A stretch of 64,000 nt of DNA from Motilimonas eburnea. Its GTDB lineage: Bacteria > Pseudomonadota > Gammaproteobacteria > Enterobacterales > CBDFNC01. Where the stretch lies: contig NZ_JAIMJB010000021.1 of the NCBI RefSeq assembly GCF_021295345.1, forward strand, positions 1-64,000, written 5' to 3'. The translations under genes and the position numbers were made by a program. Of the stretch, positions 25,509 to 50,111 are shown piece by piece. Under the pieces are notes generated by a model. That model was not told the origin of the DNA. It made no database searches and saw nothing but the letters and a program-made list of their open reading frames with translations. Each line of letters begins with the position of its first letter. The first letter of the stretch is position 1.

Positions 25509-25987
25509 AAGTACCTAAACAGTTGTGATTGAGCAAGGGCAATAAAATAAGTAGATGATTGTAACCAAATATACCCAAGCATAAAAGCTTTGGCGTCTTG
25601 GATTTGTGCAAAAAGCGCTTTTTAAATGCCGTTAACAAAAACGCTGTATCGGGGCGAATCCTGTTTCCCTCATAAATGTTATCAACTTGTGATATTTGTC
25701 TCGCCTAGGATGTCTTAAAACTACTAGATATTCGGTAATTCACCACTGTTCATTGTGTCTTCGTTTCTACGGAAAAATGGTACGATATTGATTAACTCTT
25801 TGTTTAGTAATGATTATGGTCTGTCGCTTTTATTGCTTTTTGTCTTTTTTTTGGGGTTTTTAACGGTTTATGAAGGCTGAGTCTGGTGTCTTTTAATTGA
25901 CATTGATTTTCGCCTTTTCCTATTACGATGTTGCTCAATGATAACCATCACTGGTATCGCAATATTTCATCAATAGGAGCAAGTTTA
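25509..25987. other. 479-base intergenic region without a recognised gene
   Basis: AT-rich divergent region between pflA and the haem-binding membrane protein. TATACCCAAGC near 25570 resembles the ends of the short inverted-repeat family seen at 32446-32503. No convincing RNA gene, FNR site or terminator was found. It must contain promoters for both flanking genes. Confidence 0.4.
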
Positions 25988-27547
25988 ATGAGGATGAGGT
26001 CAACGGATTGGCCCCTAGTGATTATTCACTCAACGGCAATGGTTGCATTAGTGATCAGCTTACTTTCTGGGTTTAGGCTGGCCCAAGATAGTCAACACGC
26101 CGTTGCCGTCGTTCAGAGATTGCAGTGGCTATTGCCTCAGGGAGATGTGTTTTTCTGGCATGGCTTATCAGCCTTGATATGGATAGGTGTCATGTTAGCT
26201 TATGCGGGATACCTATTATTGCGCGATAAGCCACTGGCTGCGGTGAAATCCAAACGTTTGCTGATCCAATCCCTTAAAGTCGTGTTGCCATTGAGCTTAG
26301 TGACCGGTTTATTGCTGTATTTTTCGCCACAGAGCTTGTCATTCCTGTGGCTGCTAGAGATTCACTACTATCTTGCCATCATGGTTGTGCTATTGGCTTC
26401 GCTACATATTTTGTTGCAATTGCAATCCGGTATCAAACCAACGTTGGCTATTTTTTTATTTCGCCGAGCACCGGCTAAGCACAGTTTACCTTTATGCATT
26501 GGCGTGTTGGTCGCAGGCCTTTGCTTTTTTTATTACCCGAGTCTCACGCCCAAATTAGTCAGCCAGCACACAGCCCAACCGGTACGAATTGATGGCATTA
26601 GTGATGAATGGACACAGATAACTGAGAGTTATTTGTGGTTAGGGCAGGGAGCAAACCAAGGTCAGCAGCTTAGAGTATCGGCGCGCTCTATGCATGATGA
26701 GCACGTGGTGTACTTTTTATTTCGATGGCAAGATACAGAACCTAGCTATCAACACCTCCCCTTGATCAAAACGGCACAGGGTTGGCAAGTTCGCCAACAA
26801 GGCTTTGCTACCGATGATGAGCAGCAATTTTACGAAGATAAATTTGCGGTTATGTTAAGTCATTCGGCACGCTTTGGCGCCGCTGGCAGTATTCATTTAG
26901 GTGCAAAGCCACGAGCCGATCTGCCTGAATCACGCTCCGGCCGCGGCTATCATTACCTCAAGCAAGGCTTAGTGGATGTTTGGCAGTGGAAAGCCGCGCG
27001 CCTAAGTCACATGTCAGTACTGGATGATGATCACTTTGCTCAACCGGTCAAGGTGTGTGATTACTGCCCTCGTTATACCGCAGGCTATCAAACCGATGCC
27101 AAGGATGCAGGCGGTTATCGCATGAATTGGCAGTGGTTTGACGCCAATACCGTGGTGCCATTGCGATTGCCCAAAGCGGAATTTATGGCTCAGTTTTTAC
27201 CTTCATCAGGCAGTGAGCTGGGGGCGGATTTAAGCCAATATGCAATTAGCTGGTGGGATACGCAAGCCTACAGTGAGCACCTCGATACTTATCCCATTGG
27301 CACTGCCTTACCCAGTGTGCTGCTGTTGGATCAATTTGAAGGCGATCGCGGCGATGTGCGTGCCGTCGCGACCTGGCAAGACGGTTTCTGGCAACTTGAA
27401 ATCGCCCGTAATAGGCAAACCCACTCAGAGCATGACCTCAATATTGAGTCAGGCATTTATATCTGGCCCGCTTCATTTGATGCCAACCAAACTCGTCATA
27501 GTTATTCACAACAGCCTTGGCAGCTGGTGTTGGAGCAACAAGGATGA
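25988..27547 (+). CDS. Membrane cytochrome b-like protein with ethylbenzene-dehydrogenase-type haem-binding domain
   Basis: 519 residues. The N-terminal 200 residues hold about four to five membrane helices with spaced histidines (VIIHSTAM, FFWHGLSALIW, LLEIHYYLAIM, LASLHILL), as in cytochrome b561-type membrane subunits. From about residue 200 a periplasmic beta-rich domain starts with PVRIDGISDEWTQI and contains YFLFRWQDTEPS and EDKFAVMLSH, the pattern of the haem-b-binding gamma subunit of ethylbenzene/DMSO-reductase-type enzymes (PF09459). The fusion suggests transfer of electrons between the quinone pool and the periplasm. No molybdoenzyme or iron-sulfur subunit is nearby. AGGAG at 25975-25979 supports ATG 25988 over the in-frame 25928. 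It overlaps the DUF1566 gene by 4 bases. Confidence 0.75.
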   Translation: MRMRSTDWPLVIIHSTAMVALVISLLSGFRLAQDSQHAVAVVQRLQWLLPQGDVFFWHGLSALIWIGVMLAYAGYLLLRDKPLAAVKSKRLLIQSLKVVLPLSLVTGLLLYFSPQSLSFLWLLEIHYYLAIMVVLLASLHILLQLQSGIKPTLAIFLFRRAPAKHSLPLCIGVLVAGLCFFYYPSLTPKLVSQHTAQPVRIDGISDEWTQITESYLWLGQGANQGQQLRVSARSMHDEHVVYFLFRWQDTEPSYQHLPLIKTAQGWQVRQQGFATDDEQQFYEDKFAVMLSHSARFGAAGSIHLGAKPRADLPESRSGRGYHYLKQGLVDVWQWKAARLSHMSVLDDDHFAQPVKVCDYCPRYTAGYQTDAKDAGGYRMNWQWFDANTVVPLRLPKAEFMAQFLPSSGSELGADLSQYAISWWDTQAYSEHLDTYPIGTALPSVLLLDQFEGDRGDVRAVATWQDGFWQLEIARNRQTHSEHDLNIESGIYIWPASFDANQTRHSYSQQPWQLVLEQQG

Positions 27548-28137
27548 AAACCCAAATATTGATGTTATTGATGTTATTGATGAGCTTACTGAGCGCGATG
27601 GAGGCGACGGGAGCCGATGGCAAAGTGGGGACATTGAGGTATCAAAAAGTACACCAGCAAGGCCATCACATCGCTGCTAAATCTGGCCCTTGGCATTGTG
27701 TCTTCGACAAGGAAACCGGATTGTTGTGGGAAGTGAAATCCGTGCAAGAAGGCGCGCACTACTACAAATCAACTTATTCGTGGTTTTGGCAACAACAAGG
27801 GGTTGCGCGCGCAGGCAGCTGTGCATTAGCCGAGGGTTATGCACCTTGTGATACCGAGCAATTGATTCACTTATTTAACCAAATTCAATATTGCGGTGTC
27901 GCGAACTGGCGCCTACCTAACACAGCGGAGCTACAAAGCCTGCTTGATCCTGATGCCTATGTTGGGCGCCCTTGGGTACCTGCAGGGCTTTTTCCCAATA
28001 CGGTGAAGGGACCTTATTGGACGGCCGACTGGCACCCAAGCCTTAACAAACCTGCCACAGTGCATTTTGGCACGGGGCAAATTAACTATTTAACTGCGCA
28101 AGGAAGTGCTTGGCTGCGATTGGTTAGCAAACCTTGA
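27544..28137 (+). CDS. Secreted DUF1566 (Lcl C-terminal domain) protein
   Basis: 197 residues beginning MKTQILMLLMLLMSLLSAMEATG, a clear export signal. The mature part has the DUF1566 pattern: VFDKETGLLWEVK near the front, CGVANWRLPNTAELQSLLD in the middle and YWTADWHP near the end. The family resembles the FGE/C-type-lectin fold; its function is unknown. There are four or five Cys in the mature region, probably disulfide-paired in the periplasm. The ATG overlaps the stop of the preceding cytochrome gene (ATGA), so the two are translationally coupled and probably work as a pair. The frame is also open to an upstream start at 27517, which is rejected because it would remove the signal peptide from the N-terminus. 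Confidence 0.78.
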   Translation: MKTQILMLLMLLMSLLSAMEATGADGKVGTLRYQKVHQQGHHIAAKSGPWHCVFDKETGLLWEVKSVQEGAHYYKSTYSWFWQQQGVARAGSCALAEGYAPCDTEQLIHLFNQIQYCGVANWRLPNTAELQSLLDPDAYVGRPWVPAGLFPNTVKGPYWTADWHPSLNKPATVHFGTGQINYLTAQGSAWLRLVSKP

Positions 28138-28177: not shown

Positions 28178-30772
28178 ATGCAACGAAGAACGAAACACAC
28201 GATAGGCACCTTGTGTCTGTCGGCCATGCTGGGATTTGGCGCTTATGCCAATGCCGCGCCTAATCAAGTGCGAGTGGTATGGGATCAAGATCCCGCGCGC
28301 AATGCGGTGATTGGCTTTTCCCCGAGTCAAACCAGTGCCAATAGTTATGTGATGTACGGTCAAAACCCCGATGAGGCCACCTGGCGAAAACTCACCCCTT
28401 TTGCCAGTCGGCGGTTTGACAGCGTGTTGACCAGTGAGTTTGTCAGAGTACGTAACCTTACGCCTGATGAGCACGTGTATTTTCGTTTATGTGATGAACA
28501 AGGCTGTGGTCAACACTACACGTTTAAAACCGCGCCCAGTGCGCCAGCTGATTTTACCTTTGTTGCTGGCGGTGATTCGCGCAGCAATGCCAGCATGAGA
28601 AGAACGGGCAACAAATTGGTGAGCAAAGTGCGCCCCTTATTTGTGATGTTTGGTGGCGATTTGACTTACGGCAATGAAGCTCATGAGGTCTCGCAGTGGT
28701 TGTCTGATTGGCAAAGCACCTTTAGCCAAGATCAAGTTAATGGCGTGAACTATTTATCCATTCCAGCCTTAGTGCCGACCGTAGGCAACCATGAAGGCAA
28801 TGATCATACGTTTATTTGTAAGGTGTTTGGTGTTGATGGCGACAACAATGGCCGTTGTGATTTAAACGATACCTACTTCGCCTTTAATGTGGGCGGTGAT
28901 CAAATGCGGGTTTACACCCTTAATACCGAATTTCGCTCATCGGGTTATCAAACCCAGTGGCAACAGCAAAAAAACTGGCTTAGTAATGACTTGTCACAAG
29001 CGGGCGGGCAAGTGCAATGGCGCATCAGCCAATATCACAAGCCGATGTTTCCTCGTACCACCTCAAAAAGTTACGTCAACACCAAGATGTTTGAATGGGC
29101 AGGGGATTTTTACAACAAAAAGATGAACCTAGCAGTGGAGTCTGACAGCCATCTTGTTAAATATTCTTGGCCGGTCAAACCTGCCAGCAATGACATGGAG
29201 CAAGTCAGTGCCGGCACTGTGTTTATCGGTGAAGGCAGTTGGGGCGCACCAACACGCCCCGCTGACCGCTATTCATCTTGGATTGCTGATCAAAGCAGCT
29301 TTGCCCAGTTTAAAATTATCCAGCTCAAAGGTGAGCAGATGCTGATCCGCACCGCTCGCTTCTCATCAAGTGGGCAGGCCTTAAGCCAACAAGCAAGAGC
29401 GCAAGATCCATTGGCATTGCCAACTGGGTTAAGCCTTTGGCAGGCAGATCAGATCGGTGACACATATCGCCTTGGTTTAGACAATGCAGGTCGCACTGTG
29501 GTGGTGGATGATAACCCGCCTAGTCCCTTGTTTGACGCAAGTTGTGATGGCTTATCGTGTCGTTTTGATGCCAGTGCTTCGGTCGGCGCGGGGTTAAATT
29601 ATCTGTGGCAGTTTGGCGATCAACAGCAAGGAAGCGGTGCTATTGTCAATCATACCTTTGCTAATGCAGGAGAATATCAAGTTCGCCTGACTGTCACTAA
29701 CGGCAGTGGCCAATCCGAACAACTGACAAAAAAAGTGGTGGTGACCGCAACGCCAAATCAAGGTATCGAGCTAGTTAACAATCAAACTAAAACGAACTTA
29801 TCGGGTCGAAAAGGCCAAGATACGCTTTATGTGTTTGATAATAAGACAGTTGGACGCCTAACTATAACAACGCAGGGTGGCACAGGTGATGTTGATTTAT
29901 TAGTGAAATTTGGCTCTCGCCCGAGTGGCAGTAATGCGGATTGTCGGCCTTATAAAAATGGCAATAACGAAGAGTGTGTTATCGACAACGCTGCCATCGG
30001 TCGTTTTTATATCGTCCTTAATGGCTATCAAGATTATCAAGGCGTTAGCTTAAAAGTCAGTGCAGCGACGGGCAGTGAAAACCAAGCACCAGTGGCGAGC
30101 TTTAAAGCCCAAGTGCAAGGTTTAAGTATAGAGCTCACTGATTTGAGCACAGATGCGGATAGCAACATTGTATCTTGGTTATGGCAGTTGGGTGATGGAA
30201 CTCAGCTTGATGCCACTGACGGCCAAGCCGTAAAACATACCTACCAAAAAGCCGGTCAGTATACGGTTAGTCTGAAAGTGACCGATCAACAGGGCGCCTC
30301 TCATCGCGTGACGAAAGACGTTAACGTAACTGAGCCGGGGCAAGCCGAGGCATGGAATAGCAGCAAGGTCTATGTCGAAGGGGATAAAGTGCTTTACCAA
30401 GGCAAGGTATATAGCGCGCAGTGGTGGAACAAAGGCGTTGAGCCGGGCGCGTCGCAATGGGGCCCATGGCAATTAGTTGATGGTGCCGTTCAACCAAGCG
30501 TTGAGCCAACCATTGCACCTACACCGACCCCAACAGTGGTTCCAACAACATCACCCACTATCGCTCCAACAGTGACGCCAACGATGACACCCACGGCTGA
30601 GCCAGGCACTGGCTGCCAAGGTTCATCATGGGATGCAGCCCAATCCTATGTACCGGGTGATCAAGTGGTGTACGCCAACAAGCGTTGGCAAGCCACTTGG
30701 TATTCAACTGCACTTGCACCTGGCTCAAGCAATGCTTGGAGCAGTTGGGAAGTGATAGGTGAGTGTAATTAA
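28178..30772 (+). CDS. Secreted purple-acid-phosphatase-like metallophosphoesterase with PKD, PPC and two chitin-binding modules
   Basis: 864 residues. Signal peptide 1-27; fibronectin-like N-domain about 30-118; metallophosphoesterase core about 125-400 with GGDSR (D133), GGDLTYG (D161), VGNHEG (N204, H205) and QYHKP (H287); PKD domain about 446-525; PPC domain about 530-625; second PKD about 628-720; CBM5/12 module about 725-770 (KVLYQGKVYSAQWWNKG); Thr/Pro-rich linker; second CBM5/12 to the C-terminus. At the last metal site the usual HxH appears as ESDSH (D323, H325), a substitution that could change metal or activity. The layout suggests a phosphoesterase acting on material bound to chitin. 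It starts 40 bases after the DUF1566 gene and may be cotranscribed with it. Confidence 0.88.
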   Translation: MQRRTKHTIGTLCLSAMLGFGAYANAAPNQVRVVWDQDPARNAVIGFSPSQTSANSYVMYGQNPDEATWRKLTPFASRRFDSVLTSEFVRVRNLTPDEHVYFRLCDEQGCGQHYTFKTAPSAPADFTFVAGGDSRSNASMRRTGNKLVSKVRPLFVMFGGDLTYGNEAHEVSQWLSDWQSTFSQDQVNGVNYLSIPALVPTVGNHEGNDHTFICKVFGVDGDNNGRCDLNDTYFAFNVGGDQMRVYTLNTEFRSSGYQTQWQQQKNWLSNDLSQAGGQVQWRISQYHKPMFPRTTSKSYVNTKMFEWAGDFYNKKMNLAVESDSHLVKYSWPVKPASNDMEQVSAGTVFIGEGSWGAPTRPADRYSSWIADQSSFAQFKIIQLKGEQMLIRTARFSSSGQALSQQARAQDPLALPTGLSLWQADQIGDTYRLGLDNAGRTVVVDDNPPSPLFDASCDGLSCRFDASASVGAGLNYLWQFGDQQQGSGAIVNHTFANAGEYQVRLTVTNGSGQSEQLTKKVVVTATPNQGIELVNNQTKTNLSGRKGQDTLYVFDNKTVGRLTITTQGGTGDVDLLVKFGSRPSGSNADCRPYKNGNNEECVIDNAAIGRFYIVLNGYQDYQGVSLKVSAATGSENQAPVASFKAQVQGLSIELTDLSTDADSNIVSWLWQLGDGTQLDATDGQAVKHTYQKAGQYTVSLKVTDQQGASHRVTKDVNVTEPGQAEAWNSSKVYVEGDKVLYQGKVYSAQWWNKGVEPGASQWGPWQLVDGAVQPSVEPTIAPTPTPTVVPTTSPTIAPTVTPTMTPTAEPGTGCQGSSWDAAQSYVPGDQVVYANKRWQATWYSTALAPGSSNAWSSWEVIGECN

Positions 30773-30932: not shown

Positions 30933-32402
30933 ATGAAAATAAAAATGACCCCCATCGCTATCTGTGTGGCTCTCGCACCTTTGGCGGCCAACGCGCAAAC
31001 CGAAGCAGAAGTGAATGCCGCGTTTGTTTCACAAGGTGAGCAAATTACCACCATCATGGGATCAAATGAAGAAGTGTCTTACGAGCTTAAAAACCTAGAT
31101 GGTAAAGAGCTTGGCGTATACGAAGGCGACATCATTTTAGGTGAGCATGAAGAGCTGCAATGGATGGGAGCTACGCCATTTGAATTACAATCATTTAGTG
31201 ATGCACCGGGCGCTAAAGCGTCATGGGGCGGACGTACGACATGGCCAAATGGCGTGGTGCCTTATGTGATTAACTCAAGTGTGCCTGCTGGCGATGTCAC
31301 CACCATCAAAGCGGCAATGAAATGGCTGGAAGAAGCGGCCAACGTGACCTTTGTTGAGCGCAGCGGCGAGTCTAGCTACATCAATATCATCCGCGGTGAT
31401 GGCTGTTACTCTATGGTGGGCCGCATGGGCGGGAAGCAAGATTTATCCATTGGCAGTGGCTGTGGCAGTCGCGGTATTGTCGCCCATGAGTTTTTACACG
31501 CATTGGGCTTTTACCACGAGCAATCCCGTGCCGATCGTGATGAGCACGTCAATATCTTATGGGAAAATATCCGCGCGGGCCGTGAAAATAACTTTAAAAA
31601 ACGCGGCGCGGTCACAGCATCGGTTGGGCCATACGATGTGCGCTCAATCATGCACTACAGCTACCGTGCATTTAGTGTAAATGGTCAGCCGACTATTACC
31701 TCAAAAAACCCCAACGTGCCTAATTCAGCCCTAGGTCAGCGCACCATGCTAACTGAGTATGATATTGCAGCCTTACAAGCGATATACGGCATGCCAAATG
31801 GCACCACACCGACCCCGCAGCCTACGCCTGTGCCGCCACAAAAAACCAAGTTAGCCAATGGTGAAACTGTTTATGTGACTGGCAGCAAAGACAATAATGT
31901 CTACTACAGTATCGATGTGGCCACTAACAGCCGTGTCAATGTCGCGATTTCAGGTGGTAGCGGCGACGCTGACCTCTATGTGAAACAAGGCGTTAAACCA
32001 AGCTTAACCAGTTATGATTGTCGTCCATACAAAGACGGTAACAGTGAATCTTGTACCCTTGACAATGCCAGTGGTACGGTGCACATCATGCTGCGTGGTT
32101 ATGCTGATTTCACGAATGTGGGCTTAACTGCCAGTTACAGCCAAGTGACCACGCCAACTCCAGCACCAACGGTTGCGCCAACGGTTGCGCCGACTTTACC
32201 ACCACAACCTACCACCGAGCCAACACCACCACCGAGTGGCGCCTGTGGTGAAGCTTGGAGTGCATCGACCGTTTATACCGCAGGCAAACTGGCGGTAGAA
32301 AACGGCAAGCAATACAAGGCGAACTGGTGGACTAAAGGTCAATCACCGTCAGCGAACAGTGGCCAATGGGAAGTTTGGTCATTTGTTAAAAACTGTAACT
32401 AA
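30933..32402 (+). CDS. Secreted astacin-family (M12A) metalloprotease with PPC and chitin-binding module
   Basis: 489-residue secreted zinc endopeptidase. Signal peptide 1-21; propeptide about 22-95; catalytic domain about 96-265 with HEFLHALGFYHEQSRADRD (H185, E186, H189, H195, the astacin signature) and the Met-turn SIMHY (M240, with Tyr 242 as fifth zinc ligand in astacins); PPC domain about 300-400; Pro/Thr-rich linker; C-terminal CBM5/12 module (GKQYKANWWTKGQSP). The PPC domain closely resembles that of the neighbouring metallophosphoesterase (DCRPYK followed by DGNSESC in one and NGNNEEC in the other), a sign of domain shuffling within the locus. Probably degrades protein in chitin-containing matrices. 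Confidence 0.93.
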   Translation: MKIKMTPIAICVALAPLAANAQTEAEVNAAFVSQGEQITTIMGSNEEVSYELKNLDGKELGVYEGDIILGEHEELQWMGATPFELQSFSDAPGAKASWGGRTTWPNGVVPYVINSSVPAGDVTTIKAAMKWLEEAANVTFVERSGESSYINIIRGDGCYSMVGRMGGKQDLSIGSGCGSRGIVAHEFLHALGFYHEQSRADRDEHVNILWENIRAGRENNFKKRGAVTASVGPYDVRSIMHYSYRAFSVNGQPTITSKNPNVPNSALGQRTMLTEYDIAALQAIYGMPNGTTPTPQPTPVPPQKTKLANGETVYVTGSKDNNVYYSIDVATNSRVNVAISGGSGDADLYVKQGVKPSLTSYDCRPYKDGNSESCTLDNASGTVHIMLRGYADFTNVGLTASYSQVTTPTPAPTVAPTVAPTLPPQPTTEPTPPPSGACGEAWSASTVYTAGKLAVENGKQYKANWWTKGQSPSANSGQWEVWSFVKNCN

Positions 32403-32445
32403 CTCAGGTTATATCGGTGTCAGTTTCACTCACCGATGAACTTGC

Positions 32446-32503
32446 ATACCCAATCAACCTGTAAATTATTGCTGAAACATGCATCTTCAAGTTGATTGGG
32501 TAT
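32446..32503. repeat. Short inverted-repeat element (REP-like)
   Basis: ATACCCAATCAAC (32446-32458) and its exact reverse complement GTTGATTGGGTAT (32491-32503) flank 32 bases containing gctgaaacatgcatcttc. Related half-copies occur at 21876-21889 and near 25570. From memory this is a dispersed intergenic repeat type in marine gammaproteobacteria; I could not check copy number. Confidence 0.65.
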
Positions 32504-32513
32504 ATATGACACT

Positions 32514-32538
32514 AAGAGGGCCGACGGCCCTCTTGTTC
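32514..32538 (+). terminator. Candidate terminator after the astacin gene
   Basis: AAGAGGGCC (32514-32522) and GGCCCTCTT (32526-32534) form a perfect 9-bp stem with a 3-base loop, followed by GTTCT. The U run is poor, but the stem is strong and sits in the intergenic gap. Confidence 0.6.
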
Positions 32539-32683
32539 TATCAGCAACGAGCTCTCAATTCGCGGCGTCGTTCGTTGACATTGTGCTAACATATTGCTCC
32601 AATTTAGTTTCAGCTAAAAGGTGTTAGCTGACCGCCTCCTGTTCCGGGTTATCCTCTTCTTAAGGCTTGCGTCAAAGGAAATG

Positions 32684-35600
32684 ATGAGAGTTTTTAGTGT
32701 ATGTTGCTTGCTCTACCTGAGCTTAGTTCAGTCTATTTCGGCTTTGCCCTTTCAGGGGGCTCATTTGATCGAAGCGATTGGCTTAGAGCAAGGGTTAAGC
32801 CAAGCGACAGTAGTTTCCATCGTACAAGATAATCAAGGCTACTTATGGATCGGGACTCAAGATGGTTTGAACCGTTATGATGGTAAGCAGATTCAGCAAT
32901 ACCGCTATTCCGTCAACGATGCTAACAGCCTCTCAGGCAACTATATTTCCGGATTAGTGATTGATAGTCAGCAAAGGTTATGGGTTTTGACCCCGCAAGG
33001 GTTGAACTTGTACCAAAATGAAACGGATGACTTTAAACGCTTTGCCGTGACCGCAAAAGTGCACCAGCGCAACATTCGAAGCCCGTGGGATCTTAAAGCG
33101 ACGCAAGATGGTGGCCTTTGGTTAAAAAGCTCCCAAGGGATCAGCCGTTTTGATGCAAACAAGCACACTGAACAAGCATTGATGTTAGCCCCTTCCACGG
33201 ATCCCATTATTGATTTTAGCGTCACATCGGATAACCAAATTTGGCTACTGTATCACCAAGGCATTGCGGTGAATAAACCAAACCGAGGTCTTTCGCCTTT
33301 AGCGTTAACGTTGCAGCCAAATGACAAGCTGATTGCCATTAAAGCTGAGCAAATATCATCCAGCAACATCACGTTATGGCTATTAAGTGAACAGGGCATC
33401 TATCGCTATCATGTTGCCAGTCAAACTAGCTTGTTTTACTCGCAAGCCGCACTGGGGATCTCGTCTCGCCTTACCGCGCTTGCCCTTGATAATCTGGGAA
33501 CGCTTTGGTTAGGGACACGGGCAGGGCTCTATCAATGGGCGCCAACCATGACACAAGCACAAATTATTCACCATCAAATTGGAGAATCTAAAGGCTTAAA
33601 AGACGCTTATATTCGCCAGCTTTACTTTGATCGCGCCGGTGTGCTCTGGATCGGAACTCGGTTAGGCGGGTTAAGCCGGTTGACCCCCCAAGCGGCAAAC
33701 TTCCACTTATATAATCAGCATCAAGGCATGATGCACAGTGATGTGGTGATGGCTATCCATCGCAATCATGATCAAATTTGGCTCGGTTTAGCAGACGGTT
33801 CAATTAGCCAAATTAATTCACGCCAGCAAACCGTGGTGAACCTGCGGCCAACGAATCAAGCTGGCCAAGATCTCGGTGTGATAGTGGATATCGAGCAGGA
33901 TCAACAAGGCAATATTTGGTTTGCTTCTAATCGCGGTTTAGCTCGCTACAGGCAGTCTGATCAGCAATTCGAGTTCGTAGAAGTGAAGGCTCCAAGGGGC
34001 GAAGTTGACACGTATATCAGCCAATTATTTATCTTTGATCATCGTTTATGGTTGGCCAGCGCTCAGTATGGTTTGGCGTATTATGAGCCAAGTAGTGAAC
34101 GCTTTCACTTTATTGACGACAGCGCAGATCCTGCGTTAGCCAGTGTATCAAGTGTGCTGGTCAATGGCCAAGAGACTTGGCTAGGCACATTTGATGGTCA
34201 CTTGATTCGATTAACGACCAATGGCGCAGGCGGGTATGAATACCAACCCCATGCCCTTAACTTTCTTGGTCAACCGATTAAGTTAGATATCATTAGTCAT
34301 ATTTTTCTCGCTGCAGATGGCGCGCTTTGGTTGAGTAACCGTAATGGTTTGGTTTCCTACCGCCCGGGGCAGGGCGAAGTCACTATCTTGAGTGCACAAA
34401 CGGGTTATCCGCGTGGTGCTTATTATGAAGTCGTAGAAGTCGGAGAATATGTATGGGTGAGCCAAGCGCACAGTTTGCTCAAGGTGACAAAAAAGGGGGA
34501 ATTACTTGCGGTTTATGGTCAGGCGCAAGGTTTACCCGTTAATGAGTTTAATGGCGCGAGCTCGGTGGACGGGTCAACCTTGTTATTGGGCAGTGTTAAT
34601 GGATTACTGGCCGTTGATACTGAGCTGCTTGAGCAAGACGCGACGCCTTGGCCTGTGGTGATAAGTGACATTAAAATTCAAACCATGCATGAGCGTGGGA
34701 TGAGCACTAAGCAATGGCACAAGGTCGCGCAACCTGAGCAAGGCTTAGTACTTGATTATGATAATGCGACGGTGAAAATTGCCTTTGCTGATCTCGACTT
34801 TGGTCATTCACCAACCCATTTTCGCTATCGCTTAATAGGCCTAGACCAACATTGGAACTTAGCGGAGCCACAACATAATGAAGCCATCTATCATCAATTG
34901 CCTCATGGGGAATATGTGTTTGAAGTGCAATCCAGTAAAACCCCTGACAAGTGGCATGGTCATAGCAGACAACTTGCTATCCAAGTTGCCACTCCCTTTT
35001 GGTTGAGCCATTGGGCATTCGCTATTTACCTTGTCGCGTTTGCGTTACTGATAGTGGGCTATATCCAACTAAAGTTAAAGATGGCCAATAGCCAAGCTAA
35101 GCAATTGCGTAGCCAAGTCAAGATGCGCACTAAAACCATAGAGCAACTGCTATTACAACGCGTGAATGCATTTGCTCGAATTGCCAATGAATTGAAAAAC
35201 CCCCTCAGCTTGATCCAAGCCCCCGTTGCTTATTTAAAACAACAAACCACTCAACCCCAAACTCTTGAACAACTGGAGTTAATTGAAAGCCAAACAGCAA
35301 AAGTAATGTTGCAATTGGACCGTTTGGTTCATTTGAGTCAAGCCAACGAAGGCCAATTCTCAATGAGTGAAGGGCACTATGAGCTTGCGCAGCTGGTGCA
35401 TCAGGTGGCTGAACAGGTATGCCAATCAGCCGACATTAACCCTCAACAACTGCGTGTTCAATGGCGCGGGCCAACCAAGGTCGCCGGCAATTTGGTGCAG
35501 CTTGAGGGGCTTATCTTCCAGCTGCTCAGTTATATGATCACGAAAGGGAAAGCCCATGAAGTGATTCACGTTTATGGCCGAGCGTGGGATCGTGAAATCA

Positions 35601-36631
35601 AGCTTTGGTGTTATGCTAAATCCGTGTTGTTATCGGGCGAACAATTGAGTGGCTCAGCCCTTTCTATTGCAGAGATGAGCGCGACAAACGCGTTGCAGTT
35701 GGATGATTTAGGGTTGGCTATTTTATACCAAGCAAGTCGTCAATTAGGGGCGAACATGACGATAAAGCCACATGTAAGCACTCAGTTCAGTTTGATAGAG
35801 TTAAGCTTTGCTCATCAAGCTGATGGGGAGCAAGGTGGCGAGTTTCCCTCAATACGCGGTGACCTCCCTTCTTGGTTAAAGCAGCACAAGCCTATTGCTA
35901 ATCGCTTACCCAAGCTCTTGTTAGCCACTCATGATGTGAGCATGGGGCAGTTTTTACAGCGCCTATTTATTGATGATTATCAGGTTGTGGTGGTAGAGAA
36001 ACCGAGTCAGTTAGTAAAAGCCGTTAACAAAATCATGCCTTGTGCCATCTTGATTGATTTTGAGCATCCATTAAATCTGTGTCATCAGCTACAGCAGGAG
36101 AGTTTGGGCCCCATTCCATTATTGGTATTTGTCACCCAAAGCGACCCACAATTGCGCTTGGCGTTGCTCAATAGTGGCGTGCATCATGTATTAAGTAAAC
36201 CATTTGAACTGGCAGAGTTCACCGCCATGGTGACCAACATGACGACCAATATGGCAGCCACGCCAACACCGGTCAGCCAACAAGGTGAGCCAAATGATGA
36301 TGGCGAGCGGTTATTAGAGCGAGTTGAAGCGATTGTTGCGGCAAACTTTGACGATCCCGATTTTAATATTCAAACGCTGTCAGCCTTGTCTGGGTTCAGC
36401 ATGAAACAACTGCAGCGCAAACTCAAAGTCATCGCCAATGTGACGCCTAATGAATTTTTGCGCAACTACCGTTTGAAAAAAGCACAGCAGCTATTATCTG
36501 AGCCCCTCAGTATCCAAGAGGTGGCCATGCGCTGTGGCTTTAATTCACCGAGCTATTTTACTAGCTGCTACAAAAAAGAGTTTAACCAAACGCCTAAGCA
36601 AGCACAGGCTCAAGGTGTCGAGTTGGGATAA
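32684..36631 (+). CDS. Hybrid two-component regulator with degenerate kinase core (candidate pseudokinase HTCS)
   Basis: 1315 residues from ATG 32684, preceded by AAAGGA (ATG 32681 and GTG 32621 are alternatives). Order: signal peptide about 1-22; periplasmic two-bladed-propeller repeats (LWIGTQDGLNRYDG and others) to about 690; Y_Y_Y domain; membrane helix about 775-797; HisKA-like helices; HATPase-like region; receiver about 1076-1185; AraC-type DNA-binding domain about 1215-1305. The kinase core is degraded. The H-box reads IANELKNPLSLI, with Asn835 where the paralogue at 43497 has His in VSHEFRTPLTLI. The N, G1 and G2 boxes are not recognisable. The receiver keeps the Asp (AILIDFEHP), Thr and Lys (SKPF) but loses the acidic pair (ATHD). 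The helix-turn-helix is intact. It probably controls the adjacent secreted enzymes (inference). Confidence 0.85.
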   Translation: MRVFSVCCLLYLSLVQSISALPFQGAHLIEAIGLEQGLSQATVVSIVQDNQGYLWIGTQDGLNRYDGKQIQQYRYSVNDANSLSGNYISGLVIDSQQRLWVLTPQGLNLYQNETDDFKRFAVTAKVHQRNIRSPWDLKATQDGGLWLKSSQGISRFDANKHTEQALMLAPSTDPIIDFSVTSDNQIWLLYHQGIAVNKPNRGLSPLALTLQPNDKLIAIKAEQISSSNITLWLLSEQGIYRYHVASQTSLFYSQAALGISSRLTALALDNLGTLWLGTRAGLYQWAPTMTQAQIIHHQIGESKGLKDAYIRQLYFDRAGVLWIGTRLGGLSRLTPQAANFHLYNQHQGMMHSDVVMAIHRNHDQIWLGLADGSISQINSRQQTVVNLRPTNQAGQDLGVIVDIEQDQQGNIWFASNRGLARYRQSDQQFEFVEVKAPRGEVDTYISQLFIFDHRLWLASAQYGLAYYEPSSERFHFIDDSADPALASVSSVLVNGQETWLGTFDGHLIRLTTNGAGGYEYQPHALNFLGQPIKLDIISHIFLAADGALWLSNRNGLVSYRPGQGEVTILSAQTGYPRGAYYEVVEVGEYVWVSQAHSLLKVTKKGELLAVYGQAQGLPVNEFNGASSVDGSTLLLGSVNGLLAVDTELLEQDATPWPVVISDIKIQTMHERGMSTKQWHKVAQPEQGLVLDYDNATVKIAFADLDFGHSPTHFRYRLIGLDQHWNLAEPQHNEAIYHQLPHGEYVFEVQSSKTPDKWHGHSRQLAIQVATPFWLSHWAFAIYLVAFALLIVGYIQLKLKMANSQAKQLRSQVKMRTKTIEQLLLQRVNAFARIANELKNPLSLIQAPVAYLKQQTTQPQTLEQLELIESQTAKVMLQLDRLVHLSQANEGQFSMSEGHYELAQLVHQVAEQVCQSADINPQQLRVQWRGPTKVAGNLVQLEGLIFQLLSYMITKGKAHEVIHVYGRAWDREIKLWCYAKSVLLSGEQLSGSALSIAEMSATNALQLDDLGLAILYQASRQLGANMTIKPHVSTQFSLIELSFAHQADGEQGGEFPSIRGDLPSWLKQHKPIANRLPKLLLATHDVSMGQFLQRLFIDDYQVVVVEKPSQLVKAVNKIMPCAILIDFEHPLNLCHQLQQESLGPIPLLVFVTQSDPQLRLALLNSGVHHVLSKPFELAEFTAMVTNMTTNMAATPTPVSQQGEPNDDGERLLERVEAIVAANFDDPDFNIQTLSALSGFSMKQLQRKLKVIANVTPNEFLRNYRLKKAQQLLSEPLSIQEVAMRCGFNSPSYFTSCYKKEFNQTPKQAQAQGVELG

Positions 36632-43496: not shown

Positions 43497-46400
43497 ATGG
43501 TTCAAGCAAAATTCGCCTTTATTGCACTCATGCTATTGTTTACAAGGCCAATTCATAGTTCGCCTCATTATAGCTTTGCGAATGTGTCATTAGGCCAAGG
43601 CTTAAGTCAAGCTAGCGTTAACTCCATCGTCCAAGACGATACCGGCTTTTTATGGTTAGCAACACAAGAAGGGTTGAACCGTTTTGATGGACATCGCTTT
43701 GAATCGATTGCTGCGGGAGTATTATCAAGCCAATTTATATGGCGAATAGCGAAGGGCCGCAATGGCCATTTATGGGTGTTAACGGCTAGTGGTCTTGATA
43801 TTTACGATCCGAATACTCAATCTGTTGTCCGTCGTTTCAGTCCTGAACAAATAACGGGCAGCCATGCGGGCTATCTCATCCGTAGTATTCTTATTGATGG
43901 CGATCACGCCTATCTAGCGGGAAGAGGTGGGGTTTATGTTGTTTCTGAAGAGGGGGATGTAACAAACATTGCAGCAGTTGCTCATCTTAATAAGCCCACC
44001 CTCGATGCTTACATGGTTGCGAAAGATGGTTCAAACACACTTTGGGCTGCGACCAATAAAGGTCTCTATTATTCAATAGCACAAAGTAACGATTTTGTGC
44101 TTTTTTCTAGTGATCTTAGCAAAGAAGATCTTAATGCCACTTGTCTCACTGCAACCAACCACCTTGTCTGGGTCTGTACCGAAAGCGGAATTTATCAAAT
44201 TGATACTCAAACTCAAGGAGTGCGCTACTTTTCACATAAAACCTTGCAGTTAGCCAACCCAATACAAATCTTGTATGAAGATTCAGCTGGGGTTATTTGG
44301 CTTGGGTCTAAAGCGGGGCTTTTTCAGGCTGATTTTATCAAGCAACAAGCATATCCCATTGATGTGGGAAGCAATCTCTCTCAGTTAATGATTAGCGCGA
44401 TTTATGAAGACAAAGCTGGGAACTTATGGGTTGGCAGCCAGCTTCATGGCGCCTTTAAACTATCTAACTCTGCGCGATATTTTAACTTGATGGATGAGAA
44501 GGATGGCTTATTAGACAGCTCAGTGATGGCGCTAAATAAATTAGATAACAGTCAGTTACAATACTTCACCGCAAACAGCACCTATAATTTGGTGTCAACA
44601 GATGGCCAAGTGATCGATAAAACAATATTAACGACAACCAATGGCAGTAAGCTTGGCGTTATCGTTCATACCTTACGATTTAATGATAAGACTTGGTTAG
44701 CGGGTGACTTTGGTATCGCCACGCTATCGCTGCAATCTAATCAGGTTACGTCCTATGATCTAGCTCACTTTGGTCAGGTGGACAGGCGTGACTTTGTCAG
44801 CGAGTTGATGGTTTTTAATGGCACACTTTGGGCGTTTTCTTTTGAGTCTGGTTTGTTGAGATACAGTCAACACACAGATCAATTTTTACCATTTAAGCCA
44901 TCTCACTGGCCAAGCCATCAGCCCTTTTTAGCCAAAGTCAGTAGCGCAACGCAAAACAAAGACAAGCTCTGGTTAGTCACGGTTGATAATCAGCTTATTG
45001 AGATGGATAAAAGCAGCTTTCAACTGACGGAATTAGCCGCTAGTGGTGCCTTGGTATTTGACGGGGTTTATGATCATTTAGTTGATCGCTCTAACCGTGC
45101 TTTGTGGCTTGCTAGCCGCTCGGGTGTTATTCGTTTTGATTTAAATACGAGACAGTTTCAATCAGTCAACGCCTCTGTTGGCTCAGGCCAAGCCCGAGCC
45201 GCTTATTCGGTGTTTGAAGATGAGTATGGAAATATTTGGAGTAATGCAGGGGCTAGCTTATTGCACATTGACCCTAATAGTTTGCAAATAAAGCGCTACA
45301 CATTAGCTGATGGTATGCCTATACAAGAATTTAACGCTAAGGCAAGTTTGCCACTGTCAAACGGAAGATTTTTGATGGCTGGTATCAATGGTTTGTTAGA
45401 GGTTGATCCCGCGCTCGTCTACCAAAATGACAACAGTGCTTCAGCCCAAGTGACCCATATCGAAGTAAAACAGGCAACAACAGTGCGCAATGATGAGTCG
45501 CCTTGGCTTGCGGTGCCATTTCGTTATGAACAAGCGCTTCAGTTAGAGCAAGATTCCGCTATTCGGTTACATTTTGCTGATTTTACATTTAATTCTGCCA
45601 CACGTTTTCGCTATAAAATGCAAGGGATTGATAGTAGCTGGAACTATACCGAGCTCGGTCAGCATTCGGTCACTTATCACCAATTACCACCCGGGAACCA
45701 CACTTTTGTTATTGAAACTGAAAGTAAAAGTGGGGAATGGCGGGGCAACCAAAAGCTGATGCTAGGGGTAAAGACTTATTTTTACCAAACAATTTGGTTT
45801 AGTTTGTTAGTCGGTTTGCTGCTCATTATGCTGGGTGCGCTGATTGCACGTTCAAGAGCCCGCTATTTACAACAGCAAAATTTTAAACTTGAAAGTAAAG
45901 TAGCCGCGCGCACTCAAGAAATTAAAGCCATGCTGGATCAGCGGGTTCGTCTGTTCGCCAATGTATCCCACGAGTTTCGCACGCCTTTAACCCTTATTCT
46001 AAGCCCGTTAACGTCAGCCCTGTCTGACAATGCTCCAGCAACTATCAGCCAAGCTCAGTGGACCGTAATAGAAAGAAACGCACGCCGTTTACTTTTAATG
46101 ACAGACAAGTTGCTCAAACTGACCCAAACCGGAGCCAGAGAGGCCACGGCGGTGACGCCGCTGGATCCGGTGATGCAGCACATTAAGTTGCAGTACCAAG
46201 ATTTAGCCCAACACCAGCAAGTGCAAATTTGCTTCGCGGGACAGGAGGGTTATTGTGTTGCCGCCAGTGCGGATGAATTACAGTTGATTATTCAGAATGT
46301 GGTGAGTAATGGGATCAAGTATAATCGCCCTGGGGGCCATGTTCAGGTTAAATGGTACGTTAATAATGACATGCTAGTCATTGCGGTTGCAGATGATGGC

Positions 46401-47465: not shown

Positions 47466-47809
47466 TTACCTCGCTGATATTGTTTTCGAGTGCTGAATTG
47501 AATAATGATAAACTCTAAGTTATTGAATTTAAGCGCCATAAAAGAATCTTGTATGTCTTTCTATATCTTTGAATGGTAACCACTCAGTGAACTTTAATGA
47601 GTCATTTTGTGTTGAGATTGGCCCCTTCATCAGTAGAAAAATGACAAATGTATCTTAAGCCTCATTTATGACATTTTGTCGTTTAGTTTTAAAAAATCGT
47701 CCTCTATTTGAAATAAATGTTGATGCCCTTTATCTACGCTAACTGGGCTCAAAAGAACAATGACGTTCTGATTGAGCCCTCATTAGAATTGATAAAGGAA
47801 GACAGGATA
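47466..47809. other. 344-base intergenic region upstream of the M4 protease
   Basis: AT-rich and without a gene. AATGACAAATG near 47640 and TGACATTTTGTCG near 47667 contain related GACA/TGTC half-sites that could be regulator contacts. Near 47750 an inverted pair GGGCTCA/TGAGCCC can form a leader hairpin ahead of the protease gene. No terminator for the upstream regulator was recognised. Confidence 0.4.
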
Positions 47810-49858
47810 ATGTTTAAATTGAAAGGAAGCGTCATAGCTGTTGCCGCTGCGTTAATCGCCAGCCCGACTTTTTCGGCTGAAGTAGTCGAATTGAGCCTCG
47901 ACGACGTAAACAGTCTTGGTATCGTAGGTAGCCCTCAAGCTCTGAGTTTAGGCATACTGGCAGAGCCAAATGGATTTAGTGTGTCTGAGCAAAGTCATCG
48001 TGTGCAACACGGCGAACTGCATCAGACGTTGCAACAATATTATCAAGGTGTCCCTATCTTAGGGGGGGATATTGTATTACTTAAAAATGAGCAAACGGAC
48101 AAATTTACCTACGTTGCGGGCAGTGTCGTTAAAAATATTGAAGACGATGTTAAATCTGTCACGCCATTAATTAGTGTGCGAGATATTGAAGCTTTAGCAA
48201 AACAAATTATTGCGCGCGATGAAGGTACCTCTCTTGAACACGTTAAACAAGAACAGCCAACCGATCTTTATATTTACGCCAGTGAATCGGGTAAAGCGCA
48301 CTTAGCCTATTTATTTTTTGGCTTTGTTGATGTGAATGCCGTTAAAGCACCTGTGTTGATCATGGATGCCAATACTGGAGAGGTATTAGAGCAATACAAT
48401 AATATCCCTCATGCCAAAGCAACTGGGGAAGGCGGAAATGAAAGACGTGGAATTATCAATTATGGTGAAGGAGAGTGGGATCATCTGAACGTCACTAAAT
48501 CGGGTACTCGTTGTACTTTAGAAAACCAACATGTGCGGATCGTCAATCTCAATAATCGTGCTGATTATACGACTACCTCTCCGGCTTACCCATACAATTG
48601 TGTCGATTCCGACAACCGCTTTGATGAAACTGATGTGAATGGCGCTTACGGCGTGGGCAGTGAGGCTTTGTACAATGGCACTAAGCATGTAGAGATGTTT
48701 CGCGAGTGGTATGCTACCGCGGCGTTACCATCTAAGTTAATCATGCGAGTGCACTTTGGCAATACAGATAAAGATGCAAACAATGCATTTTGGTATCAGG
48801 GCAAAATGAGTTTTGGTGACGGCGGCTCTCGGTTCCATCCATTTACGAGTGTTTCGGTGGTTGGTCACGAAGTGGCCCACGGTTTTACTGAAAATCATTC
48901 GGGGTTAGTTTATAAAAATCAATCTGGCGGTTTGAATGAATCATTTTCTGATATGGCGGGCATGGCATTAAAGGAATACATTTACGGCCATGCTGATTTC
49001 ATTATGGGCAATGAAATCTACAAAAATTCGGGCTTTATGCGTAGCATGAAAAACCCGACGTCTGACGGGCGCTCTATTGATCATGTATCGAAATACACCA
49101 CAGGCATGGATCCCCATCACTCCTCAGGTGTTTTTAATAAGGTCTTTTACAACTTAGCAACGACACCGGGCTGGAACGTAAGATATGCATTTGAAGTGTT
49201 TTTACGTGCGAATGAGCGTCGTCTATGGACTTCTAATGCAACGTATCAACAAGCCGCTGATGGCGCCTGTCGTGCGGCAGCTGATTTAGGTTGGGATGGT
49301 AATGACATTGCCGCAGCGCTGAGTGATGTTGGTTTATCATCAAGCTATTGCCGTAGCGGTAATAAGCCAGTGGGCGGCGTTACTCCCTCGGTTGAGCCGA
49401 CGATAGCACCAACCATCGCACCTACCACAGAACCAACGATTGCGCCTACACCTGATCCATTACCAGGCGGCGCTTGGAACCCTCAAAAGATATACCTTGC
49501 CGGTGATAGAGTGTCACACCAAGGTAAGGTCTATGTATCACTGTGGTGGAACCAAGGTCAAGAGCCCGGAACGGCACAATGGGGACCGTGGGATTTAGTG
49601 GATGGTGGCACCGATCCAACTCCACAACCGACTATTGATCCAACGGTAGCTCCGACGGTTGAGCCAAGTGTTACCCCTACCAGCGAACCAGATGGAAGCT
49701 GTAGTGGTGTTGGTGCTTGGAGCCCGAACCAGTCGTATTCCCTAGGCGATCATGTTGTCTACTCCGGCAATCGTTACGAGGCGATTTGGTGGAGTACCAA
49801 TGTCCAGCCAACGGATCGGTCAGCTTGGAATATTTGGAAAAAAATAGGCGGCTGTTAA
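47810..49858 (+). CDS. Secreted thermolysin-like (M4) metalloprotease with two chitin-binding modules
   Basis: 682 residues from ATG 47810, with AAAGGAAG upstream; the open frame begins at 47717. Signal peptide about 1-23; FTP/PepSY-type propeptide about 25-200; M4 catalytic domain about 205-510 with HEVAH (H353, E354, H357) and third zinc ligand E377 in GGLNESFSD (24 residues after the first His, as in thermolysin), plus catalytic His in DPHHSSGVFNK; Pro/Thr linker; CBM5/12 module (GKVYVSLWWNQGQEPG); second linker; second CBM5/12 (GNRYEAIWWSTN) to the C-terminus. Related to vibriolysin/pseudolysin. Exported, probably by type II secretion, and self-activated by propeptide removal. Downstream of the intact HTCS. 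Confidence 0.95.
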   Translation: MFKLKGSVIAVAAALIASPTFSAEVVELSLDDVNSLGIVGSPQALSLGILAEPNGFSVSEQSHRVQHGELHQTLQQYYQGVPILGGDIVLLKNEQTDKFTYVAGSVVKNIEDDVKSVTPLISVRDIEALAKQIIARDEGTSLEHVKQEQPTDLYIYASESGKAHLAYLFFGFVDVNAVKAPVLIMDANTGEVLEQYNNIPHAKATGEGGNERRGIINYGEGEWDHLNVTKSGTRCTLENQHVRIVNLNNRADYTTTSPAYPYNCVDSDNRFDETDVNGAYGVGSEALYNGTKHVEMFREWYATAALPSKLIMRVHFGNTDKDANNAFWYQGKMSFGDGGSRFHPFTSVSVVGHEVAHGFTENHSGLVYKNQSGGLNESFSDMAGMALKEYIYGHADFIMGNEIYKNSGFMRSMKNPTSDGRSIDHVSKYTTGMDPHHSSGVFNKVFYNLATTPGWNVRYAFEVFLRANERRLWTSNATYQQAADGACRAAADLGWDGNDIAAALSDVGLSSSYCRSGNKPVGGVTPSVEPTIAPTIAPTTEPTIAPTPDPLPGGAWNPQKIYLAGDRVSHQGKVYVSLWWNQGQEPGTAQWGPWDLVDGGTDPTPQPTIDPTVAPTVEPSVTPTSEPDGSCSGVGAWSPNQSYSLGDHVVYSGNRYEAIWWSTNVQPTDRSAWNIWKKIGGC

Positions 49859-49885
49859 TCAGTTAAATACTGATAAATGAATGAT

Positions 49886-49908
49886 AAAGGAGCCACATTG
49901 GCTCCTTT
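49886..49908 (+). terminator. Terminator after the M4 protease
   Basis: AAAGGAGCC (49886-49894) and GGCTCCTTT (49900-49908) form a perfect 9-bp stem with loop ACATT. The descending arm ends in TTT followed by AATAT. Confidence 0.75.
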
Positions 49909-50034
49909 AATATATCACTGAGCACCGTCTCCTTACCCTTGGGAACCCGCGACAGAAAAGATGAGTTATCAATGGCAGGGTTACCCATCAAATGATTAGA
50001 TGAATTTAGTGAACTTAACGAGAGTTAGGTACAA

Positions 50035-50063
50035 CAAAAAAGCCACCTGAAGTCAGGTGGCTT
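50035..50063 (-). terminator. Rho-independent terminator of pflB
   Basis: Read on the minus strand, AAGCCACCTG and CAGGTGGCTT pair perfectly around a 4-base loop and are followed by TTTTTTGTT. It begins about 50 bases after the pflB stop codon. It shows that the present pflB transcript ends here and does not continue into pflA. Confidence 0.9.
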
Positions 50064-50111
50064 GATGCGCTTAACTACAGCCCGCTAAGCAGGCTGTCTG
50101 CTATAAAGCTA

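Follow-up and report, generated by a model that had tools for sequence, protein, structure and literature searches.

A hybrid two-component regulator of Motilimonas eburnea that has lost most of its phosphorelay motifs

The regulator and its degenerate core

The window analysed here, a stretch of 64,000 nucleotides from Motilimonas eburnea (contig NZ_JAIMJB010000021.1), encodes two regulators of the hybrid two-component system (HTCS) type, P0001 and a canonical paralogue, P0002, which we call the twin (Table 1). They are the sole two Y_Y_Y matches in the source genome. A first-pass annotation made from the sequence alone had described them as proteins of nearly equal size and identical layout, and this holds, as their 1315 and 1322 residues are encoded by intact frames with the same Pfam domains at their ends. 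It had also called the propeller, Y_Y_Y and AraC domain of P0001 intact, in agreement with Reg_prop, Y_Y_Y, HTH_18 and HTH_AraC matches that pass the Pfam cut-off in both proteins. The N terminus of P0001 resembles a signal peptide and its reading frame is unbroken. The order of an HTCS on one chain (propeller, Y_Y_Y, membrane helix, DHp, ATPase (CA) domain, receiver, AraC) is present in full, the CA domain through its predicted fold and not through Pfam. What P0001 lacks of an HTCS is the H-box His, the N, G1 and G2 ATP boxes, a complete receiver site and the [S/C]HIP-DK contact between receiver and DNA-binding domain.

The boxes of histidine kinases are designated H, N, G1, F and G2, and ExxT/N is their phosphatase pattern. 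The H-box of P0001 reads ANELKNPL against SHEFRTPL in the twin, and the codon AAT, read directly, places Asn835 at the phospho-His site, as had been claimed. The N-box is QLLSYMITK against NVVSNGIKY, the G1 box CYAKSVLLS against VADDGYGID and the G2 box QLDDLGLAIL against TGTGLGLALV. The ATP boxes had been described as unrecognisable and the other copy as fully canonical; we find the N, G1, F and G2 motifs gone from P0001, with HATPase_c undetected by Pfam, and canonical motifs in the twin, where HATPase_c scores 92.4 bits. The HisKA and Response_reg matches of P0001 are both sub-threshold (20.0 against a cut-off of 26.9 bits, and 22.4 against 30.2 bits). In the receiver, the motif of the acidic pair is LLLATHD against LLIVEDN in the twin, so that Thr-His (T1082 and H1083) stands where the pair had rightly been reported lost; the retained Asp D1125 and Lys K1172, a four-residue deletion right after D1125, and GPIP in place of CHIP in the receiver loop had been overlooked. 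A pseudo-histidine kinase has been defined as a histidine kinase homologue without at least one of the usual functions (PMC12632262), and P0001, judged by its motifs, would qualify as one.

AlphaFold2, run on residues 797-1315 of P0001 with 27 sequences, returned a model in which DHp helices and a CA-like alpha/beta part are accompanied by a receiver and a DNA-binding part built of helices, at a mean predicted local distance difference test score (pLDDT) of 76.9 and a predicted template modelling score (pTM) of 0.37. When those 27 sequences were used for the corresponding stretch of the twin, the values were 78.5 and 0.51, and the difference in pTM is weakly in line with a looser packing of the dead core. 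Good Foldseek matches to the P0001 model are histidine kinases, many of them active, with RetS and DivL among them. The dead core is predicted still to adopt a DHp-CA-like fold, although the model may have been biased towards this fold by canonical kinases among the aligned sequences.

Table 1. Coordinates of P0001, its parts, the twin and the neighbouring genes in the window.
Feature	Positions	Strand	Remarks
P0001, dead-core HTCS regulator, 1315 residues	32684..36631	+	alternative GTG start at 32621 possible
P0001 Reg_prop propeller region, periplasmic, residues 22-650	32747..34633	+	change rate ordinary
P0001 Y_Y_Y region, residues 651-770	34634..34993	+	
P0001 membrane helix, coil and DHp-like helices, residues 771-892	34994..35359	+	helix judged from sequence
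P0001 Asn835 (AAT) at the phospho-His site	35186..35188	+	ExxN pattern after it retained
P0001 degenerate ATPase (CA) domain, residues 893-1046	35360..35821	+	N, G1, F and G2 boxes unrecognisable
P0001 CA-receiver linker RGDLxSWLKQxKP, residues 1058-1070	35855..35893	+	modelled with low confidence
P0001 pseudo-receiver, residues 1074-1190	35903..36253	+	acidic pair replaced by T1082 H1083; D1125 and K1172 retained
P0001 GPIP, residues 1142-1145, receiver side of the DNA-binding-domain contact	36107..36118	+	replaces [S/C]HIP of live relatives
P0001 AraC-type DNA-binding domain, residues 1208-1315	36305..36628	+	Gly at the contact Asp position; contact Lys retained
Twin P0002, canonical paralogue, 1322 residues	43497..47465	+	
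Ethylbenzene-dehydrogenase-type haem domain protein	25928..27547	+	weak N-terminal cytochrome-b match; first gene of linked module
Lcl_C domain protein	27517..28137	+	linked module
Metallophosphoesterase with PKD and CBM5/12	28178..30772	+	weak purple-acid-phosphatase-type N terminus; linked module
Astacin protease with PPC and CBM5/12	30933..32402	+	immediately upstream of P0001
M4 (thermolysin-type) protease with CBM5/12	47717..49858	+	adjoins the twin

Orthologues, order of the losses and rates of change

We compared four Motilimonas genomes, namely the source of the window (G000), Motilimonas sp. E26 (G001), G002 and M. pumila PLHSC7-2 (G003), in which 2, 2, 1 and 2 Y_Y_Y matches were counted, respectively. 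In a pattern-based scan, the two nearest relatives among the matches listed are E26 and M. pumila. A search across the order at E 1e-30 gave matches in 80 of 394 genomes; outside the genus, those listed reach at most 33% identity, often over partial length, and no further orthologue was recognised among them. The syntenic E26 orthologue is 49% identical to P0001, and the twins of the same two genomes are 76% identical to each other. In a tree of the sensor part (18 proteins), the three orthologues group together (100/99), as do the four twins (100/100), the join of the groups having 88/87; because orthologues and twins form separate groups, the paralogues split before the sampled Motilimonas species did. 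The description of the two proteins as twins is therefore right in that P0002 is a canonical paralogue of the same layout, and wrong in so far as it suggests close kinship: M. pumila has two canonical copies, and P0001 and P0002 share 27% identity overall (26% in the propeller, 29% in the DHp region).

Every scored motif is canonical in the M. pumila orthologue, and likewise in the twins of all four genomes. The E26 orthologue retains its His in the H-box VHDLKTPL, but its N box, G1 box and receiver acidic pair are gone and its G2 box is degenerate. Since E26 combines ATPase and receiver losses with a retained His, and M. pumila is canonical, the simplest account would be that the core died before the split of the G000 and E26 lineages and that the His-to-Asn change came later, private to the G000 lineage. 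The first-pass annotation had counted any orthologue with the catalytic His against its reading of a dead kinase; E26 has exactly such a protein, but with its ATP boxes gone the conclusion survives in changed form. The His-to-Asn change is not the defining event.

Rates of change differ between the domains. On a fixed topology and with 60 column bootstraps, we measured the path that leads from the common ancestor to each dead protein and divided its length by that of the path to the M. pumila orthologue. For G000 the ratio is 1.15 (0.80-1.76) in the propeller, 1.16 (0.39-2.72) in Y_Y_Y and 1.82 (0.83-3.46) in the DHp region, and it rises to 3.98 (2.33-8.28) in CA and 2.46 (1.55-4.31) in the receiver. 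The CA domain of E26 is faster too, at 2.82 (1.62-6.81), and its receiver is borderline, at 1.64 (0.99-3.48). Between the G000 and E26 twins, CA (79%) and receiver (95%) are more identical than the propeller (71%); between the dead proteins, CA (31%) and receiver (39%) both fall below the propeller (54%). The CA domain has nevertheless been retained, because the relatedness of the dead pair in this domain far exceeds that of shuffled sequence (z = 19.9). Synonymous sites are saturated in the P0001 gene, where fourfold-site identity is 0.29, and in most of the neighbours compared, so we abandoned absolute dN/dS and used omega in a relative sense only, at assumed synonymous distances of 1.09 (the value of the twin), 2 and 4. 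The first of these is itself rejected for the P0001 gene (2 delta lnL = 281.5). Omega = 1 is rejected at all three distances for the propeller, Y_Y_Y, DHp region, receiver and helix-turn-helix (HTH) domain; for CA, omega is 0.85, 0.43 and 0.21, and 1 is rejected at distances 2 and 4. A dN/dS near 1 over the whole gene had been named as evidence against selected loss of catalysis; five domains depart from that value and CA, at distance 1.09, does not, which is a rough reading given the saturation. That loss of catalysis was selected is supported by losses common to two species, frames kept open, an ordinary rate in the propeller and faster change in CA and receiver. The linker RGDLxSWLKQxKP is common to P0001 and its E26 orthologue, and neither the M. 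pumila protein nor any twin shows it; we note this as an observation only.

The run of haem protein, Lcl_C protein, phosphoesterase with a carbohydrate-binding module (CBM), astacin-CBM protease and regulator recurs in E26 and in M. pumila, where one additional gene precedes the astacin gene. G000, E26 and M. pumila each have the regulator along with the haem-protein and astacin genes. All three are missing from G002, which has no regulator orthologue and no haem-protein match, astacin matches restricted to the CBM region, and a canonical twin in the absence of the dead copy. The claim that a chitin-binding protease gene stands beside each regulator proved correct, the proteases being the astacin (P0001) and the M4 enzyme (twin), both with CBM5/12. 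In E26 and M. pumila the regulator and twin genes lie on separate contigs. Some side observations concern these neighbourhoods. On M. pumila contig C106 (L189:7020-11421), genes resembling those for the haem protein, Lcl_C protein and CBM-phosphoesterase form another, diverged set, with no astacin or HTCS gene in the 20 kb examined. Twin, M4 protease and pflB (43497-52397) show a fourfold identity to E26 of 0.45-0.55, against 0.26-0.40 in the other eight genes compared, and this lower synonymous divergence perhaps stems from interspecies recombination. A scan of positions 32350-32750 found no promoter-like site and one terminator-like site, within the start of the coding sequence.

Other HTCS and the receiver–DNA-binding-domain contact

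How unusual P0001 is was judged by scoring seven core positions per protein, gaps not being counted as losses, in two comparison sets that partly overlap and contain near-duplicates. The first comprises 46 other AraC-type HTCS, chosen by AraC-domain coverage from 167 long open frames at 129 loci; the second is a census of 102 open frames complete to the AraC end, among the matches listed for 12 Bacteroidota genomes. P0001 differs at 5 of the 7 positions and its E26 orthologue at 4. In the first set 45 of 46 proteins score 0 and one scores 1; in the census 95 of 102 score 0 and 7 score 1. Three census frames are gapped at kinase positions (L190, L191 and L228, the last cut at the H-box), and the zero-scoring 95 include L191, which is kinase-less by deletion or assembly fault. 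This frame, from a Prevotella metagenome-assembled genome (G397), encodes an HTCS of 1298 residues with a His-bearing DHp and no CA, in place of which stand some 45 repeat-like Gly/Pro-rich residues, the result of either a genuine deletion between repeats or a mis-joined metagenome assembly. At L190 (G401) an HTCS is split into a sensor kinase of 1042 residues and a receiver-AraC frame of 257 residues. Asn replaces the G1-box Asp in L135, L196, L198, L204, L211, L212 and L253, the remaining scored core being canonical. Against a profile from which the three orthologues had been left out, P0001 scores 237.5 bits (E = 7e-70) and the E26 protein 310.1 bits; census rows that span the whole core score at least 459 bits among the matches listed, on a different profile from that behind the 237.5 bits. 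As a guide and not as proof, equals of P0001 are missing from the 12 census genomes. His is absent from 0.9% of HisKA domains and about 6% of receivers are pseudo-receivers (PMC12632262). Cases like P0001 look rare but precedented.

HTCS receivers are described as keeping the AraC domain off DNA through a conserved [S/C]HIP loop that touches two residues of the DNA-binding domain, an Asp and a Lys; loop substitutions in BT4124 and BT4663 allow DNA binding without phosphate (Gao, Wu and Stock, PMC11253607). We placed the helix Asp 39 residues ahead of the contact Lys, after the BT4124 numbering in that paper. The five live Motilimonas relatives (the M. pumila orthologue and all four twins) carry CHIP-DK, and the dead proteins carry GPIP-GK (G000) and GQIP-KK (E26), with both the loop His and the helix Asp gone. 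The loop His is present in 46/46 of the other HTCS and in 97/102 of the census. A contact altered in this way, as the residues suggest, fits an output that would no longer depend on phosphate.

Proposed mechanism, alternatives and known systems

The reading that we favour, at slightly better than even confidence, is that P0001 would act as a phosphorylation-independent, membrane-tethered one-component regulator of the adjacent chitin-binding module. Sensor, membrane helix (from sequence) and DNA-binding domain stand on one chain, which is the layout of a transmembrane one-component regulator. The ancestor would have been an ordinary HTCS controlling the module of haem protein, Lcl_C protein, CBM-phosphoesterase and astacin-CBM protease. 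In the common ancestor of G000 and E26, ATPase and receiver chemistry would have been lost together with the inhibitory grip of the receiver on the AraC domain, and the phospho-His would have followed in the G000 lineage only. Because the relay chemistry is lost, we infer that the signal passes without phosphate: ligand binding by the periplasmic propeller could shift the geometry of a dimeric stalk made up of Y_Y_Y, membrane and DHp segments, and that geometry could directly determine how far apart the two AraC domains stand or how available they are, at target genes that would be those of the module, by either activation or repression. A more specific version, which we advance tentatively and doubt somewhat more than we believe, holds that the intramolecular phosphorelay was shut down stepwise and replaced by a mechanical linkage between propeller and AraC domain, that loss of the contact freed DNA binding, and that dead CA, receiver and newly conserved linker serve as an allosteric scaffold.

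Besides a one-component regulator, the first-pass annotation had proposed an allosteric partner of the intact copy. The former role gains support from the broken receiver contact and the module linkage; for the latter we found no positive evidence. P0001 would here heterodimerise with the twin through the DHp bundle and modulate its kinase or output as a pseudokinase subunit, for which DHp-like helices in both proteins, their standing as the only Y_Y_Y pair of the genome and the ChrS pseudokinase, which heterodimerises with its paralogue HrrS (PMC9491836), offer some ground. Against this stand the low paralogue identity in propeller and DHp region, the canonical twin of G002 with no dead copy present, the separate contigs in E26 and M. 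pumila, and the fact that P0001 still has a DNA-binding domain and a linked module of its own, and we consider the partnership unlikely. We give equally little credence to a constitutive DNA binder, always bound as repressor or activator, without transmission from the sensor and controlled through its own expression. The altered contact does predict binding independent of phosphate, PMC12632262 discusses pseudo-receivers with constitutive activity, and BT2391 (FHIP-QK) acts as a repressor of its genes (PMC11253607), but a propeller that changes roughly as fast as that of the live orthologue is hard to explain without sensing.

These two are the chief rivals, with decay and phosphatase behind. 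Slow decay towards a pseudogene would agree with the faster CA and receiver and with the lower identity of the dead pair than of the twins, yet it seems very improbable in view of two frames, each about 1315 codons long, that have stayed intact despite saturated synonymous sites, a CA domain still recognisably related between the species and the rejection of omega = 1 in the other five domains. Least probable, by a little, is that P0001 serves the receiver of the twin as a phosphatase or as a sink for phosphate: the DHp pattern (ExxN in G000, DxxT in E26) and a conserved His that contributes to HisKA phosphatase activity without being essential (PMC12632262) would permit it, but the pattern is equally a relic of the HTCS ancestor, the nucleotide pocket is gone, and the linked module and kept AraC domain would be left unexplained.

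Several observations weigh against phosphate-free regulation by P0001 as we propose it. The [S/C]HIP-DK contact is common in HTCS and not required: the helix Asp (39/46 and 83/102) varies more than the loop His, and the full consensus [S/C]H[I/V]P-DK occurs in only 60/102 of the census. Four census proteins without the loop His have a canonical core (AFIP, SNIP, VTIP and QQIP in L177, L195, L197 and L250); five of six with Asn for the G1 Asp retain the loop His, the sixth lacking both, and the sole such protein of the first set retains it as well. A general coupling of kinase loss with contact loss is unsupported by the census, and the dead proteins form a single clade, which makes their joint loss one event. 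Their Gly-Pro and Gly-Gln also differ from the substitutions tried in PMC11253607. The AraC/HTH path ratio of G000 is raised but unsure, at 2.00 (0.84-5.81), and the CA omega at distance 1.09 is not different from 1 (p = 0.14), a value that would also suit decay. Finally, no shared operator was apparent in the sequences upstream of the haem-protein gene, which were compared by eye across three genomes with no formal motif search and looked too diverged to reveal one.

Neither DivL of Caulobacter nor RetS of Pseudomonas is known to carry a DNA-binding domain. DivL is like P0001 in its kept kinase fold and replaced phospho-His (Tyr in DivL), and it has no kinase activity and is repurposed, but it reads phosphorylated DivK and is not an HTCS (PMC4211667). 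RetS, a good structural match to the P0001 model, is a sensor that acts on another kinase, and it differs from P0001 in working through that kinase, GacS (PMC5992135). The ChrS variant of Corynebacterium glutamicum shares with P0001 a disrupted CA and a live paralogous kinase, with which it forms heterodimers; unlike P0001, it is a laboratory-evolved frameshift and has a separate response regulator (PMC9491836). Transmembrane regulators, including the Rsp PilS/PilR chimera, likewise have a sensor, a membrane segment and a DNA-binding domain on a single chain, but lack the kinase-receiver core that in P0001 is still there as a predicted fold (PMC10269533). The closest case is BT4236, a Bacteroides thetaiotaomicron HTCS with Gln for the phospho-His and the contact CSIP-EK, for which its authors suggested a phosphorylation-independent mechanism; it is like P0001 in its replaced phospho-His and non-consensus receiver–DNA-binding-domain motif, and, compared by description, the loss of ATP boxes and acidic pair and the stepwise series of orthologues are described for P0001 and not for BT4236 (PMC11253607). 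The kind is thus already known through BT4236, and what is new is that most of the relay has gone and that the orthologues form a stepwise series.

In open-licence PubMed Central listings and abstracts we found no paper on P0001 or on a wholly dead-core HTCS, and a text search of the Motilimonas genome paper (PMC13182010) gave 0 hits for "regulator" and for "histidine kinase". The switching mechanisms of bacterial pseudo-receivers have been termed a mystery (PMC12632262). Here, three orthologues that agree in gene order and in the kind of sensor and output present a canonical core, a dead core with His and a dead core without His. Found in an environmental marine bacterium, this series lets one ask whether HTCS signalling can do without phosphate and whether loss of the receiver–DNA-binding-domain contact is what enables it. 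It is also a warning for annotation, in that a full-length HTCS is not always a kinase.

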